Below are positions 5,980 to 63,240 of a stretch of DNA of 64,000 nucleotides, piece by piece; position 1 is the stretch's first letter; every line of letters begins with the position of its first letter. A model generated the notes under the pieces. It had not been told where the DNA came from, made no database searches, and saw only the letters and a list, made by a program, of their open reading frames with translations. The stretch comes from Oscillospiraceae bacterium. Lineage in GTDB: Bacteria > Bacillota > Clostridia > Oscillospirales > CAG-272. The DNA lies in NCBI GenBank assembly GCA_015064385.1, contig SVSI01000001.1:29637-93636 (forward strand), given 5' to 3'. Made by a program: the position numbers and the translations under genes.

Positions 5980-6090
5980 TTGGTGTCTTTTCCTTTTGAT
6001 AAAGGGTGTTTTTTATATTATACAGCAAAGTTTGTGTGTTGTCAATCAACGCATGCGTGTGTTTACAAAAAAGATGATTTTAAGCAAAAA

Positions 6091-6513
6091 ACGGAGAACC
6101 TTTGGCGTGATACTCTTAACGGAGTATCACGCCAGTTCTATTCGCCTGCGGCGAGTTCTATTGCTACGCAGTGTTATTCGGCTTACGCCGAGTGATATTT
6201 GCTTCGCAAGTTTATGGGCGAATAGAATATCACTGAAGCCGCAAGGCTTCAATATCACTTTCTTTTGGAAATATCTCGCCACAGGCGAGGTTTTTTCAAA
6301 AGAAAATATCACGCTGACTTTGGTCAGCATATCACTTAACAGACAAAAAGAAAGAGAAGACTCGTTAATATACGAATCTTCTCTTTTCTGTTGTTAGTGG
6401 GTTTGGGCTACTGCCCAACTGAATTTGTGCATACAAATGCGATGCTGGTTCTTAACAGAAACAGGTATGATTACAAATTCTCCGATAAGAACAACACCTT
6501 TCGGCTCTCCGTT
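6091..6513 (-). repeat. Terminator-nested hairpin-array element, copy A
   Basis: AAAAACGGAGA/TCTCCGTTTTT outer stem; internal AGTGATATT and AATATCACT repeats separated by short hairpins; 12-bp hairpin GGCGTGATACTC/GAGTATCACGCC. Confidence 0.8.
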
Positions 6514-6524
6514 TTTGTTTCAGC

Positions 6525-9155
6525 TTATTTAACGTAGTTTCCGACTACCGCGGTAACTGCCGCGAGTGCCTCGTCGATCTTCGAGAGATCCTTTGCGCCT
6601 GCGCTTGCGCTGTCGGGACGTCCGCCGCCACCGCCGCCGCAGATGCTTGCGATCTCTTTTACGATCTTGCCTGCGTTAGCGCCGCGCTTTACCGCGTCCG
6701 CTCCGCATACGCACACGAAGTTAAGGCGGTCTGCGTTTACAAGTGCAAGCAGAGTAACGCTTGCGGGATTCTTGTCTCTTACCTTGTCACAAAGAGCACG
6801 CGCCGAATCAACGCTTACTCCGTCAAGACGGGAGGAGATAACGCTTACCCCGTTAACGTCGATCGCCGACTTTTCGGTTTCGGAGAACTGCGCTGCCGCG
6901 ATCTTGCCCTCGAGCGATTCGATCTCGCTCTTTGCATCACGGAGCTCGCTCTGGAGCTGGGATGCGCGCTTTGCAAGATCTGCGGAATTTGCAAGCTTCA
7001 TTTCCTTTGCCGTCTCGGTAATAAGCTCGTCCTTCTTAGAAAGGAGCTCGAGAACGCCGAGACCGGTGGTTGCCTCTATTCTTCTGACGCCCGCCGCTAC
7101 CGATGATTCGGAAATTATCTTGAAAAGTCCCGCTTTTGCGGTATTGTCTATATGCGTTCCGCCGCAAAGCTCGGTAGAGAAGTCGCCCATCTTGACCATT
7201 CTGACCGTCTTTCCGTACTTTTCTCCGAAGAGCGCCATAGCGCCCGCTTTCTTTGCGCTTTCAATGTCGGTCTCGACCGTTTCGACGCAAACGCCTGCGA
7301 GGATGTGAGCGTTTACGAGTGCCTCGACCTTTGCAAGCTGCTCTGCGTTTACCGCCTCGAAGTGCGAGAAGTCAAAACGGAGACGGCTCTCGTCAACGTA
7401 AGAGCCCGCCTGCTCAACGTGAGCGCCGAGCACCTCGCGGAGTGCTGCCTGGAGAAGGTGGCACGCCGAGTGGTTTCTGCGGATAGCGTTTCTTCTGTCG
7501 GTGTCTATCTCTGCTTTTACCGTGTCGCCTACCGAAACTGCGCCGTTTTCCATCTGTGCGATATGGATATATACGCCGTCGGTCTTTTTGGTATCAAGGA
7601 TGTTTATTACGCTGTCGCCGAGAGTGATCTTGCCGCTGTCGCCGACCTGACCGCCGCCCTCGCCGTAGAATACGGTCTTATCAAGGATGATCGAGAATTC
7701 GCCTTCGTTTACGGTTTCGAGGAGGTTATCGTCCGAAATTATGCCGAGGACCTTTGCCTCGCAGGTGTTTTGTGCGTATCCGACGAACTCGGTTGCACTA
7801 AAGCCCTCAAGCAGTCCCTTGGAGGCGTCGCTCCAGCCGCTGATGTTAGCTCTTGCCTCGCGGGCGCGGGTCTTCTGCTCCTTCATAAGAGCGGTGAAGG
7901 TCTCCTCGTCGAGAGAAAGTCCCGCTTCTGCGGCGATCTCTCTTGTGAGGTCGATGGGGAATCCGAAGGTATCGTAAAGGCGGAAGACTTCGTCTCCGGG
8001 GAGCTTTTCCGCACCCTCGCCCTTTGCCTTTTCGATAAGTCCGCCAAGGATGGCAAGACCGGAGTCGATAGTTGCGGCAAAACGGCTCTCCTCAATGGAG
8101 ATGATCTTGCTTATATACTCGAGCTTTTCGGTAAGCTCGGGATATTCGGAATAGTTTTCGCGTGCAACGACCGCTGCGATGTCGGCAAGGAAAGCGCCCT
8201 TTATGCCGAGCATTCTTCCGTGACGTGCCGCACGGCGAAGCAGACGGCGGAGAACGTATCCGCGTCCCTCGTTAGAGGGAACAACGCCGTCGCATACCAT
8301 AAAGGTGGAGCCCCTTACGTGGTCGGTAATAACGCGGAGCGAGATATCGGTCTTGGGATCGTCTCCGTATTTTACGCCCGCCTTTTCAACGATGGCGCCC
8401 ATAATGTTCTGAACGGTATCTACCTCAAAGAGGTTGTTTACACCCTGCATAATGCAAGCAAGACGCTCAAGTCCCATACCGGTATCGATGTTCGGCTTTG
8501 CAAGACGGGTGTAGTTGTTATGGCCGTCGTTGTCGAACTGTGTGAAAACGAGGTTCCAGAATTCCATATATCTGTCGCAGTCGCAGCCGGGCTTGCAGTC
8601 GGGCTTTCCGCAACCGAACTCTGCGCCTCTGTCGAAGTGAAGCTCAGAGCAAGGTCCGCAAGGTCCGCTTCCGTGCTCCCAGAAGTTGTCCTCTTTGCCG
8701 AGACGAACGACTCTCTCCTCGGGGATGCCGACCTCTTTAGTCCAGATGTCGTACGCTTCATCGTCCTCAAGATAAACGGTTACCCAGATGCGCTCCTCGG
8801 GAAGCTCGATGACCTTGGTGCAGAACTCCCACGCCCACGGAATAACCTCTTTTTTGAAGTAATCGCCAAAGGAGAAGTTTCCGAGCATCTCGAAATAAGT
8901 GCCGTGACGCGCGGTGATACCAACTCTGTCAATATCGGGTGTACGGATACACTTCTGACAGGTGGTCATTCTGTGGCGCGGCGGCTCCGCCTCGCCCGTG
9001 AAATATTTTTTAAGGGGAGTCATTCCCGCGTTTATAAGCAGAATGGATTTGTCGTTTATCGGCACGAGAGGGAAGCTCTTGTGACGAAGATGACCTTTTG
9101 ATTCAAAAAACGAGAGATATTTCTCGCGAATGTCGTTTACAGACGTCCATTTCAT
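6525..9155 (-). CDS. alaS: Alanyl-tRNA synthetase
   Basis: MKWTSVNDIREKYLSFFESKGH, GMTPLKKYF, LCGGTHI; start ATG at 9155. Confidence 0.98.
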   Translation of the reverse strand: MKWTSVNDIREKYLSFFESKGHLRHKSFPLVPINDKSILLINAGMTPLKKYFTGEAEPPRHRMTTCQKCIRTPDIDRVGITARHGTYFEMLGNFSFGDYFKKEVIPWAWEFCTKVIELPEERIWVTVYLEDDEAYDIWTKEVGIPEERVVRLGKEDNFWEHGSGPCGPCSELHFDRGAEFGCGKPDCKPGCDCDRYMEFWNLVFTQFDNDGHNNYTRLAKPNIDTGMGLERLACIMQGVNNLFEVDTVQNIMGAIVEKAGVKYGDDPKTDISLRVITDHVRGSTFMVCDGVVPSNEGRGYVLRRLLRRAARHGRMLGIKGAFLADIAAVVARENYSEYPELTEKLEYISKIISIEESRFAATIDSGLAILGGLIEKAKGEGAEKLPGDEVFRLYDTFGFPIDLTREIAAEAGLSLDEETFTALMKEQKTRAREARANISGWSDASKGLLEGFSATEFVGYAQNTCEAKVLGIISDDNLLETVNEGEFSIILDKTVFYGEGGGQVGDSGKITLGDSVINILDTKKTDGVYIHIAQMENGAVSVGDTVKAEIDTDRRNAIRRNHSACHLLQAALREVLGAHVEQAGSYVDESRLRFDFSHFEAVNAEQLAKVEALVNAHILAGVCVETVETDIESAKKAGAMALFGEKYGKTVRMVKMGDFSTELCGGTHIDNTAKAGLFKIISESSVAAGVRRIEATTGLGVLELLSKKDELITETAKEMKLANSADLAKRASQLQSELRDAKSEIESLEGKIAAAQFSETEKSAIDVNGVSVISSRLDGVSVDSARALCDKVRDKNPASVTLLALVNADRLNFVCVCGADAVKRGANAGKIVKEIASICGGGGGGRPDSASAGAKDLSKIDEALAAVTAVVGNYVK

Positions 9156-9237
9156 AGTGTTTTTTCCTTCCGTTATGAAAATAAATAAACGTAACCTATA
9201 TATTATAGCGTGATTTTTTGTGCTTGTCAAGAGCTGT

Positions 9238-11340: not shown

Positions 11341-11358
11341 TTTATTTTTTCCTTTAAG

Positions 11359-11411
11359 TAAAGTTTTTGGGAAGGTATGGAAACCCTTTTTTCAAAAAGG
11401 GTTTCCATAAG
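11359..11411 (+). repeat. GTAAAGTTTTTG-type hairpin repeat
   Basis: GTAAAGTTTTTGGGAAGG + TATGGAAACCCTTTTTTCAAAAAGGGTTTCCATA; related copies at 47502, 62020 and 63139. Confidence 0.6.
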
Positions 11412-27406: not shown

Positions 27407-27413
27407 ATATTTT

Positions 27414-27756
27414 ACGGAGAAGGAGGGATTTACGAACCCAACGCGGGCGTCGTGCGGCGGTTGCTGCTCACCTCATCTGCCGCCCGCTTTTGCAAATTGC
27501 CTGCGGCAATTCGCGGGGTTCTGCATCGTGTAAATTCACTATAAAAAACAAAAGAACGAGCAGTTGCTCGTTCTTTGTTTTTTTACGGAGAAGGAGAGAT
27601 TTACGAACGTAGGCGCGGGCGTCGTGAGGTGATTGCCGTTCATCTCGTTTTCCGCCCGCTACGGCAAATTGCCTTTGGCAATTTACGGGGTTCTGCATCG
27701 TGTAAGTTCACTATAAAAAACAAAAGAACGAGCAGTTGCTCGTTCTTTGTTTTTTT
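27414..27756 (-). repeat. Two tandem ~171-172 bp repeats derived from the tRNA-Ser 3' end and its terminator
   Basis: ACGGAGAAGGAG(G/A)GATTTACGAAC at 27414 and 27585; AAAGAACGAGCAGTTGCTCGTTCTTT hairpin in each. Confidence 0.85.
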
Positions 27757-27757
27757 A

Positions 27758-27846
27758 CGGAGAAGGAGGGATTTGAACCCTCGCGCCGCTATAAACGACC
27801 TACACCCTTAGCAGGGGCGCCTCTTCGGCCTCTTGAGTACTTCTCC
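27758..27846 (-). tRNA. tRNA-Ser (GCT), no encoded CCA
   Basis: GGAGAAGTACTCAAGAGGCCGAAGAGGCGCCCCTGCTAAGGGTGTAGG...GAGGGTTCAAATCCCTCCTTCTCCG. Confidence 0.95.
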
Positions 27847-35405: not shown

Positions 35406-35796
35406 AAAAAAGCAGAGACCGAAATCCGGGATGTTCTTAGCAGATAAATAAGATAGGGGTATGGGCGCATCCCGATGCATTTGTAAAACAAATGCGAAAC
35501 CGGCGATAAAACAGAAGGGAGAGTCATGCGGAAGCAAAATTCCGTAAGACTCTCTCTTTTTCTGCTGTCTATGAGTGATATTCTTTGCTTTCGCAAAGAG
35601 TGATATTGCCCTTGCGGGCAGTGATATTGTTCGGTTACGCCTCACAGTGATATTCTATTCGCCTCAAAAACTCGCGAAGCGAATACCACTCGGAGTGAGC
35701 CGAATATCACTGCGTAGCAATATCACTCGCCGCAGGCGAATAGAACCGGCGTGATACTCCGATAAGAGCATCACGCCAAAAGGTCTCTGCTTTTTT
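35406..35796 (+). repeat. Terminator-nested hairpin-array element, copy B
   Basis: 15-bp outer stem AAAAAAGCAGAGACC/GGTCTCTGCTTTTTT; AGTGATATT and AATATCACT repeats around mini-hairpins; GGCGTGATACTC/GAGCATCACGCC hairpin. Confidence 0.85.
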
Positions 35797-47757: not shown

Positions 47758-50025
47758 ATGAAAAGACTGACTGCGTTACTTTTAGCGTTGATGCTGTTAC
47801 TAACCTGTTGCAGCGCTCCCGTTGAAGATCTGTTCGACGGAGCTGACTCTGATCAAAATATAAATGCGGGATACACGAACTATTCTCCGCCTGACATCGA
47901 AGACGGGGATGCGCAAGGTGATTTTTTCGGCGACATTGAGACGGAGATAGATCGACCCGAGAACGGCAAACCTACGGTGGAAGATCCCAACGAGGATAAA
48001 CCCACGGTGGAAGATCCCAACGAGGATAAACCCACGGTGGAAGATCCTAACGAGGACAAACCCACGGTGGAAGATCCTAACGAGGACAAACCCACGGTGG
48101 AAGATCCCAACGAGGACAAACCCACAGTGGAAGATCCCAATGAGGACAAACCCACAGTGGAAGATCCCAATGAGGACAAACCCACGGTGGAAGATCCTAA
48201 CGAGGACAAGCCCACGGTGGATCAGCCCAACGAGGACAAGCCCACGGTGGATCAGCCCAACGAGGACAAACCCACGGTGGATCAGCCCAACGAGGACAAA
48301 CCCACGGTGGATCAACCTAACGTGGATAAACCCACGGTGGATCAACCCGAGACACCGGAAATATCCCACGATTATAAGGCAACCGTAACTGCGCCTACCT
48401 GCAAGAGCGAGGGATATACGACCTACACCTGCTCGATATGTGGGGACTCGTACGTGACCGATCGGGTTTCAACCGTTCCGCACAATTACAAATCAACGGT
48501 AACTGCACCCACTTGTGTGAAGAGCGGTTACACCACGTACACCTGCACGGTTTGCTCTACCTCTTATACCTCAAACACGGTAGCTGCGACAGGTCACAAC
48601 TGGAAGGCGGCTACGACGTCTGCGCCCAAAACCTGCACAACCTGCGGTGCGACCGAAGGAAGTAAGCTGCCCTCGACCGATTCGTCAAGCTCTTCATCCG
48701 GTTCCTCCTCGTCAAGCTCTTCATCCGGTTCCTCTTCGTCAAGCTCCTCGTCCGGATACAGCGAGAAGCTTTACGTAAGCTACATAAACGTAGGACAGGG
48801 AGACAGCATTCTCATTAAAGTCGGTGACTGTGACATTCTTATCGACGCGGGTACGTCAAGCTACGGCTCTACCGTTTCAAGCTATCTGAAGAGTCAGGGC
48901 GTTGACGATATTGAGCTTCTGATAAATACCCACCCCGATTCTGACCATTGCGGCGGACTGACCGCGGTTCTTAACAGCTTTGTGGTCGAGCAGGTGTGGA
49001 TCTCTCCCAAAACGAGCACGACTACGGTTTACAAGAACTTTATCTCCGCGGTAAATAGCGAGGGTCTGACCGCTAAAAAGCCGACGGTGGGAACCGTTTA
49101 TAAATACGAATATCTGACACTTACCGTTCTTTATGCATCAACGGGCTCCGATTCCAACAACTCGTCTATCGTGACGATGCTTGAATACGGCAGCTACAAA
49201 TTCCTCTTTACCGGAGATGCGGGCGAAGAGGTTGAAAACAAGCTCGTAAGCTCGGGCGCAAACCTCAGCTGTGACGTTCTTAAAGTCGGACATCACGGCA
49301 GTAAGTATTCAAGCACGGCGTCGTTCCTCAGTAAAACGGGCGCTGACTACGGCGTAATTTGCGTAGGAAGCAATTCTTACGGACACCCCACGGCCGATGC
49401 GCTTAGCAGACTTTCGTCTGCGGGAATAACCGTTTACCGTACGGACAAGGACGGAAACGTAGTATTCTCCACCAACGGCGCGACCTTGACTCTGCCGGGA
49501 GGCGGAACGGTCAGCGGCGGATCCGGATCGGGCACGTCCTCTGGCGGAAGCTCGTCGGGAAGCACCTCCTCGGGCTCGTCCTCAAGCGGTTCTTCGTCCT
49601 CATCTACCGAGTATTTTATCGGTAACACCGAGACTAAAGTGTTCCATCTTCCCACCTGCGGCAATCTTCCCGCGGCATCCAAGCGTAACACGATGTATAA
49701 TTATTGGTGGATAATCAATATTGCCGGATATACGCCCTGCGGACGTTGTCTGAAGAATTATTCGGGTGGCGGCAGCGAAAGTACTACGAGCTATATTGCT
49801 AACACCGAGTCTAAAGTATATCACTTGTCCACGTGTAGTTATCTGCCTGCGGCATCCAAGCGTGAGGTAATATACAGTACTGCGGGATACACGCCTTGCG
49901 GACACTGTATAAAGAAGGCGACTTCAACGAGCGATACGTCCGGTGGAGACGTCGGAGCGGTTCAGCTCCTTTCGTACGCCTACGTATCGGTATCGTCCAA
50001 ACGCGAACTGCTTGTTGTGGTATAG
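47758..50025 (+). CDS. Lipoprotein with tandem repeats, Cys-rich repeats, ComEC-like metallo-beta-lactamase domain and two Ada-like CxxC motifs
   Basis: Lipobox LLLTCC; YINVGQGDSILIKVGDCDILIDAG, NTHPDSDHCGGL, KVGHHGSKYSS; (K/V)FHLPTCGNLP...GYTPCGRCLK x2. Confidence 0.85.
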   Translation: MKRLTALLLALMLLLTCCSAPVEDLFDGADSDQNINAGYTNYSPPDIEDGDAQGDFFGDIETEIDRPENGKPTVEDPNEDKPTVEDPNEDKPTVEDPNEDKPTVEDPNEDKPTVEDPNEDKPTVEDPNEDKPTVEDPNEDKPTVEDPNEDKPTVDQPNEDKPTVDQPNEDKPTVDQPNEDKPTVDQPNVDKPTVDQPETPEISHDYKATVTAPTCKSEGYTTYTCSICGDSYVTDRVSTVPHNYKSTVTAPTCVKSGYTTYTCTVCSTSYTSNTVAATGHNWKAATTSAPKTCTTCGATEGSKLPSTDSSSSSSGSSSSSSSSGSSSSSSSSGYSEKLYVSYINVGQGDSILIKVGDCDILIDAGTSSYGSTVSSYLKSQGVDDIELLINTHPDSDHCGGLTAVLNSFVVEQVWISPKTSTTTVYKNFISAVNSEGLTAKKPTVGTVYKYEYLTLTVLYASTGSDSNNSSIVTMLEYGSYKFLFTGDAGEEVENKLVSSGANLSCDVLKVGHHGSKYSSTASFLSKTGADYGVICVGSNSYGHPTADALSRLSSAGITVYRTDKDGNVVFSTNGATLTLPGGGTVSGGSGSGTSSGGSSSGSTSSGSSSSGSSSSSTEYFIGNTETKVFHLPTCGNLPAASKRNTMYNYWWIINIAGYTPCGRCLKNYSGGGSESTTSYIANTESKVYHLSTCSYLPAASKREVIYSTAGYTPCGHCIKKATSTSDTSGGDVGAVQLLSYAYVSVSSKRELLVVV
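47968..48352 (+). repeat. 30-bp minisatellite encoding (KPTV[ED/DQ]PNED)x12 plus a partial unit
   Basis: Perfect 30-nt periodicity, CCCACGGTGGAAGATCC(C/T)AACGAGGA(C/T)AAA, switching to GGTGGATCA(G/A)CC after eight units. Confidence 0.97.
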
Positions 50026-59731: not shown

Positions 59732-59821
59732 TTTTGTCATATCAAAATAATAAAATATTTATTGACAAAGATAAAGGCGTATGCTATAATGTAAACGGTG
59801 ACTGTTTCACCCAAACTTAAC

Positions 59822-59907
59822 GTGTTTTTTGTGACTGACGGATAAAGCGGTTTACCGCGGGGGAGCAAAGATCATAACACGTCCTACGCCGACCGTCTGG
59901 GCAGTTC
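59822..59907 (+). promoter_or_regulatory. ZTP (pfl) riboswitch upstream of purE
   Basis: GTGACTGACGGATAAAGCGGTTTACCGCGGGGGAGCA...GCCGACCGTCTGGGCA matches the pfl-motif consensus. Confidence 0.92.
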
Positions 59908-59943
59908 TTACCTTAACAGTAGGCGAGAACTGTCCTTTTTTGA
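59902..59943 (+). terminator. Riboswitch-associated intrinsic terminator
   Basis: CAGTTCT...AGAACTGTCCTTTTTT directly after the aptamer. Confidence 0.85.
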
Positions 59944-63133: not shown

Positions 63134-63138
63134 AAAAA

Positions 63139-63240
63139 GTAAAGTTTTTGGGAAAGTCTGAAAACCCTTTTTCCAAAAAGGGTTTTCAGAAAAAGTTTTG
63201 AAGGAGTTTGAGGAAACTTTTCTCAAAAGTTTCCTCAAGT
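63139..63240 (+). repeat. GTAAAGTTTTTG-type hairpin repeat upstream of purN
   Basis: GTAAAGTTTTTGGGAAAGTCTGAAAACCCTTTTTCCAAAAAGGGTTTTCAGA plus a second hairpin GAGGAAACTTTTCTCAAAAGTTTCCTC. Confidence 0.65.

Follow-up and report, generated by a model that had tools for sequence, protein, structure and literature searches.

The window, by which we mean the whole 64,000-nucleotide stretch of DNA analysed here, holds two copies of a structured repeat, elements A and B, each lying between the two arms of an intrinsic terminator after a gene (Table 1). A preliminary description of element A had reported AGTGATATT and AATATCACT words, mini-hairpins, a final 12-bp hairpin (6104–6133) and a second copy, and all of these are present; the second copy is element B. 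Of the 10 occurrences of AATATCACT in the window, nine fall in the two copies; 0.38 would be expected, and none of 100 shuffles gave more than 2. The interval given for element A, 6091–6513, was right in its location but too wide, as it takes in most of the terminator arms at 6086–6100 and 6503–6516. These arms belong to the host, differ between the copies and lie outside the element proper (6104–6499). The 12-bp hairpin, described earlier as the close of the hairpin array, is the right end of the element and lies outside the array. The window also contains a 55-bp near-identical repeat that forms a long palindrome (11356–11410 and 63137–63191) and resembles a dispersed terminator, a run of tandem 60-bp repeats (47967–48348), a duplicated stretch of ~190 bp (27410–27774) and, on the plus strand at 59821–59909, a ZMP/ZTP riboswitch (RF01750, 59.6 bits).

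Table 1. Features of elements A and B and their surroundings in the window
Feature	Positions	Strand	Basis or remark
alaS (alanyl-tRNA synthetase)	6525–9230	minus	Named from sequence; its terminator holds element A
alaS intrinsic terminator, left arm AAAAACGGAGAGCC	6503–6516	minus	Followed by loop GAAA; element A parts this arm from its partner
alaS terminator, right arm and T-tract GGTTCTCCGTTTTTT	6086–6100	minus	Helix score 32.7 (locus L203)
Element A, 396 bp	6104–6499	minus	AA (loop, 6500–6501) on one side, AA (6102–6103) on the other
Element A left end, terminal inverted repeat AGGTGTTGTTCTTATCGGAGAATT	6476–6499	minus	One base shorter than consensus GGGTGATGTYCTTATCGGAGAA
Element A, two small hairpins (GCATTTGTATGCACAAAT, GGGC-AGTA-GCCC)	6402–6440	minus	Resemble the 5' leader module before passenger genes in longer relatives (sequence comparison)
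Element A inner terminator-like hairpin and T-run (AAAAGAGAAGATTCG...CGAGTCTTCTCTTTCTTTTT)	6344–6387	minus	Sequence, fold
Element A hairpin array	6134–6336	minus	Left: AGTGATATT words and side hairpins; right: AATATCACT words and hairpins
Element A right end, perfect palindrome GGCGTGATACTC CGTTAA GAGTATCACGCC	6104–6133	minus	Inverted repeat of the left end
Gut-1 RNA (RF01706) match, right half of array A	6133–6203	plus	43.9 bits, E 1.7e-7; below gathering score 50
Gut-1 RNA (RF01706) match, left half of array A	6222–6337	minus	35.0 bits, E 3e-5; below gathering score 50
Element B, 353 bp	35425–35777	plus	Same family as A; AA at 35423–35424 and 35778–35779 at the borders
Copy B left terminator arm (A-tract and GCAGAGACC)	35406–35420	plus	A few nt past the upstream gene's stop codon; helix score 40
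Copy B right terminator arm and T-tract (GGTCTCTGCTTTTTT)	35782–35796	plus	Sequence, arm pairing
Copy B hairpin array	35574–35747	plus	Gut-1 matches in both halves
Copy B Gut-1 match	35532–35632	plus	42.0 bits
Copy B Gut-1 match	35678–35748	minus	40.2 bits
Copy B right-end palindrome	35748–35777	plus	One mismatch

Folded as a single strand, the element A region reaches −188 kcal/mol (z = −13 relative to shuffles), and in the minimum free energy (MFE) structure 6503–6516 pairs with 6086–6100. The outermost arms, ACGGAGAGCC and GGTTCTCCG, are followed by T6, and this arrangement just past alaS is an ordinary intrinsic terminator. The left end of element A is one base short, so the border register carries an uncertainty of ±1, the left side of the loop reading GAAA and the right side AAA. 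The arms of copy B (AGCAGAGACC and GGTCTCTGCT) are complementary like those of copy A, yet unrelated to them in sequence. These unlike but equally complementary arms, each pair just after a gene, were what first pointed to a terminator as the setting of the repeat. The earlier view of the region as repeated, structured and non-coding, able to form one long stem with side hairpins, is borne out by this fold and by the covariation considered below.

Insertion into terminators extends across the family. In a set of 183 copies, both ends could be found by motif in 74, the best-paired left end being used where there were several candidates, and the flanking arms of 86% of these 74 reach a helix score of at least 22, compared with 1.9% of mismatched pairs. 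Boundaries were set by three end types; 58 of the 183 copies have right ends outside these types, and some of those right ends are hairpins like those of tRNA terminators. The 64 copies that pass the helix threshold formed the set for later terminator tests. When the element and one copy of its border repeat are removed, the rejoined flanks have a mean MFE of −21.5, against −7.5 for mismatched joins, and 98% of the 64 fold at −12 or below, against 12% of mismatched joins. The loops of the rejoined hairpins are mostly 2–6 nt long and often AAAA or GAAA. The arms of short elements pair in the MFE structure in 46 of 46 cases, and every site with enough flank (55 of 55) has a gene end within 150 nt. 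In an earlier round with 77 copies, 30 beat all of about 27 mismatched-pair controls in arm complementarity where about 3 would be expected; with end similarity added, the count was 46 of 76 copies. The family thus inserts in terminator loops. Orientation with respect to the neighboring gene end is about equal (44 left, 42 right); a bias relative to the host gene, suggested by a first count (48 of 56), was gone in the mirrored count. No natural empty site was found: alaS in three same-genus genomes has no simple empty terminator, the sequences flanking copy B and one further copy have no match in those genomes, and a flank search among the collected loci gave a single locus, hit twice. In two of the same-genus genomes the region after alaS (L204 and L205) seems to hold the left ends of other such elements, and the alaS terminator region may be a hot spot.

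The ends of the elements are inverted repeats, with the left consensus GGGTGATGTYCTTATCGGAGAA and the right consensus GGCGTGATACTC-N6-GAGTATCACGCC. Other lineages have matching end pairs of their own, left GGCTGGTTCTCATAAGGA with right TCCTTATGAGAAGTTGGGC and left GCCTCGGGTTCTAAAGGA with right TCCTTAGGAACACAACGCC, and the hairpin of the right end is kept across 75 distinct arm strings as its sequence varies by lineage. The end pattern is present in 52 of 146 family genomes; the reversed control is present in none. At one fixed register, a 2-bp direct repeat borders 44 of 48 copies, compared with 25.7 by permutation (p<0.0005), and in a second lineage 7 of 7 compared with 3.8 (p 0.02), with no direct-repeat signal at other registers. 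In copies of end type 2 it does not reach significance (8 of 9 versus 6.5) because AA dominates. Two other kinds of border were considered and rejected: a 3-base target duplication, as the third base is often lost and 2 bp fits better, and single-strand transposition of the HUH/IS200 type, as the elements end in inverted rather than direct repeats and have a repeat at their borders.

The preliminary description had proposed that a covariance model be built and related genomes searched. A model (R1) made from a 101-nt core (alignment A1) finds matches in 79 of the 146 family genomes, with at least 20 copies in the richest genome, and the window's own genome holds at least about eight element copies. 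An exact 23-base piece of the element occurs in at least 114 contigs; among the contigs listed, all are from uncultured Clostridia, Clostridiales or Oscillospiraceae, and many are labelled ruminant gut. A core match with 79.5% identity (query 213–338) also lies in a phage record from human faeces (MT835815.1, 5049–5172). The sequences are draft assemblies of uncultured bacteria, and contigs often break at element copies.

Elements A and B are short and multi-copy, with terminal inverted repeats and no recombinase or other enzyme gene among their ORFs, as is the case for miniature inverted-repeat elements. Copies of 711–1548 bp mostly bear a gene, which usually reads from the array side toward the left end. 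These passengers differ from copy to copy and include peptidase S51, HAD hydrolase, MazG, SF0329, DUF4304, GNAT and, weakly, DinB-like proteins, as well as, by inspection, an XRE-methyltransferase and a lipoprotein-like protein. In some copies, including L003 of the window's own genome, a gene for a PF05635 four-helix-bundle protein comes first (E 4.9e-28 in some cassettes). The same ends, in sites of the same kind, also bound cassettes whose array is different or missing. Two array-less cassettes with these ends (L155, 1460–2930, and L158, 1460–2965) encode, in the position of the PF05635 gene, either a DUF559 protein or a RAYT-like one (PNHIH motif seen by eye, without a Pfam hit), and have a passenger gene in addition; at L172 (1450–2560) an IS transposase gene with an rve domain lies within the RAYT-like passenger gene of a cassette. 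A conserved leader module (ATAGGGGTATGGGC..GCCC, GCATTTGT..ACAAATGC, GAAACTGGCGATAAA) is found upstream of passenger genes in L012, L019, L024 and L034, and is kept in cargo-less copies in both orientations, in the window at 6402–6440 (minus) and 35454–35510 (plus).

The array is related to Gut-1 RNA. The preliminary description could place it in no known ncRNA or insertion-element family; RF01706 does match both of its halves, in A and in B, below the gathering score (Table 1). A scan of Rfam at the gathering threshold returns nothing in copies A and B, and two sister copies in the same genome score above 50 (L003, 50.2 bits; L005, 51.5 bits). Alignment reveals the Gut-1 layout, three hairpins parted by a conserved word, within the element array. 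A covariation count on 53 diverse cores gives 82 double-sided changes over 10 pairs, compared with 20 by shuffling, and none of 500 shuffles is as high; the hairpins and outer stem pair in 96.5% of cells, and sliding the partner columns by 1–3 destroys the signal. Gut-1 was reported as an ncRNA from the human gut only, with its function unknown (Weinberg 2010, PMC2864571). Across the class, it is present in 49 of 290 genomes, and the best of these loci show the same paired arrays, with the word GTGAAAT, mostly adjoining tRNA genes and in one case with a PF05635 gene. Gut-1 alone is therefore half of a structure, as the arrays consist of paired, oppositely oriented half-arrays. The array is a separate module, since there are cassettes without arrays and arrays outside cassettes, and because the ends and sites stay the same where the array differs or is missing, the unit that moves appears to be the cassette. 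The original classification as an ncRNA element thus holds in that the element is structured and covarying, but it appears to be a mobile element in terminator hairpins and not merely an ncRNA gene.

Association of the array with PF05635 genes is frequent. Among the best 30 PF05635 loci of the family, about 20, as read by eye, have an array directly upstream, with the words AGTGATATT, TAGCTAAATT, ATGATG, ATGAAGC, AGTGATGT or AGTGAAGT. The array-bearing proteins form one clade (100/100), and on the PF05635 tree the repeat word requires 7 changes, the minimum possible, compared with 20.0 when shuffled. A and B lack a PF05635 gene beside the array, whereas L003 and several copies in the family have one. 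Tight linkage would by itself make the word track the protein tree; because all words in one array change together, the tracking suggests recognition, and our guess would be that the array is a REP-like target of the PF05635 protein. Upstream of PF05635 genes that have no array (L100, L102, L104, L105, L106, L109 and L112) there are tandem short words, such as CTAACTCC, AATTGTC and GCTAATT, possibly part of a wider association between the protein and repeats.

The end pattern alone leads to contig ends that encode the C terminus of a DUF4368-like protein. Family-wide, the proteins with the matching C terminus are large serine recombinases that combine Resolvase, Recombinase, Zn-ribbon and DUF4368 domains; the nearest solved protein is TnpX (E 2e-38), and in several genomes the recombinase gene stops ~50–100 bp from the same end repeat. 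In genome G010, two contigs (L193 and L194) appear to show both ends of a recombinase element in a terminator (CATCCTCG-AAA on one side, AAA-CGAGGATG on the other), and the matching arms suggest that a single insertion accounts for both. Recombinase elements and cassettes have similar rather than identical ends, and the palindromic right end does not look like a standard attachment half-site. The matching C terminus occurs in 12 of 146 family genomes, and the small elements in 52–79 of 146. In the window's own assembly, no recombinase has the matching C terminus, the sole Recombinase-domain gene being of a different type. A sister lineage of the recombinase, whose end is a variant (ACGAAG), was predicted to have cassettes of its own, and none were found. 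Recombination of Tn4451 occurs at 2 bp (PMC5704250), and DUF4368 is the mark of a multi-targeting recombinase clade, one example of which uses TT cores with A/T-rich flanks (PMC10083194); both facts fit the recombinase link. Because their ends also occur on elements that encode a TnpX-like DUF4368 large serine recombinase, the small elements look non-autonomous, and they would be moved in trans by that enzyme.

Taken together, element A is probably a non-autonomous mobile element, a miniature or an emptied cassette, that sits in the alaS terminator loop with ends of the TnpX/DUF4368 clade and carries a Gut-1-type array. Its ends would be inverted half-sites for a multi-targeting large serine recombinase of this clade, encoded on integrative elements of their own. 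Excision by this enzyme would yield a circle in which the right end, 2 bp and the left end make up a near-palindromic attP, and the circle would reinsert at other dyad-symmetric sites with A-rich centers, in practice intrinsic terminators, the 2-bp crossover giving the direct repeat at the borders. As modelled, the insert would fold on itself so that the terminator arms meet and the closing stem re-forms; this, with the position at a gene end, could make insertion nearly harmless, with termination predicted from the fold to be kept. The Gut-1-type array inside would be an independent module with a lineage-specific word, found beside PF05635 genes and perhaps bound by that protein.

Terminal inverted repeats, a short target repeat, multiple copies and palindromic targets would fit, in general, a miniature derivative of a DDE insertion sequence (such as an IS30- or IS3-like one) that prefers terminator palindromes and makes a 2-bp duplication, and REP palindromes are targets of some known IS elements (PMC1525189). 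However, a search for transposases with rve domains in 17 end-rich genomes gave 14 genes, only two of them near such an end and one of these two being an IS inside a passenger gene; none of the elements seen with these ends encloses a DDE gene, and it is the recombinase genes that directly adjoin the end repeat. On this rve-domain search and the placement of the recombinase genes, we consider a DDE origin unlikely. A stand-alone structured ncRNA gene, namely Gut-1 RNA in incidental surroundings, the reading of Rfam and in essence of the preliminary description, would account for the sub-threshold matches in both halves, the strong covariation and the distribution across the class, but not for the same ends and sites occurring with other arrays or none, nor for Gut-1 being half of a paired structure, and this seems slightly less likely still. 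The constant position at gene ends and the closure of the structure by a terminator stem and T-tract could also be read as a giant composite terminator of host making, whose long stem and side hairpins evolved because they strengthen termination after genes. Such a terminator is highly improbable given that the arms differ per copy and the inside is common, that there are fixed borders with a 2-bp repeat, that the host genes are unrelated and that passengers lie inside.

If element A is a mobile element of the kind we favor, an orphan RNA family becomes part of a mobile element, a recombinase can find many harmless sites via the dyad symmetry of terminators, and accessory genes of uncultured gut Clostridia have a cassette-like route of spread. 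The binding target of PF05635 proteins becomes testable, and the terminator-loop target rule, which seems unstated so far, may be of interest as DUF4368-type recombinases are sought as genome-insertion tools. More tentatively, and with more doubt than belief on our part, the elements might belong to an unrecognised cassette system that is mobilised by serine recombinases, carries variable passengers and an array bound by its cognate four-helix-bundle protein, and uses terminators as universal safe landing sites. If so, the orphan Gut-1 RNA would be accounted for, and the PF05635 proteins would have a role.

Features in common with the Tn4451/Tn4453 (TnpX) mobilizable elements and the DUF4368 multi-targeting recombinases are the recombinase family of the partner elements, a 2-bp crossover repeat, low site specificity and an A/T-rich core. 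The small elements differ from Tn4451 in lacking a recombinase, in their size (0.3–1.5 kb), in their number (at least ~20 copies in a genome) and in their location in terminator loops, and the word "terminator" is absent from the Tn4451 and DUF4368 papers (PMC5704250, PMC10083194). No published description of these terminator cassettes was found. Each array half shares with Gut-1 the order word, hairpin, word, hairpin, word, hairpin, word, but is here half of a paired array with other words, within mobile cassettes of Clostridia mostly from ruminant gut. Integron gene cassettes work in a similar way, as small mobile units that combine a structured region with a passenger gene that varies; they lie at an integron with attC and an integron integrase, whereas the elements considered here have inverted-repeat ends and a 2-bp border repeat and are scattered in terminators, not collected in one array. 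In REP/REPIN sequences and their RAYT proteins, scattered palindromic words are tied to a small protein, and the tracking of the PF05635 tree by the array word is similar, although the protein here is a four-helix bundle and A and B have no protein gene. The intervening sequences of 23S rRNA encode a PF05635 protein; some cassettes share this protein family with them, as well as insertion at hairpins, but the cassettes target terminators or tRNA-adjacent sites in place of 23S rRNA.
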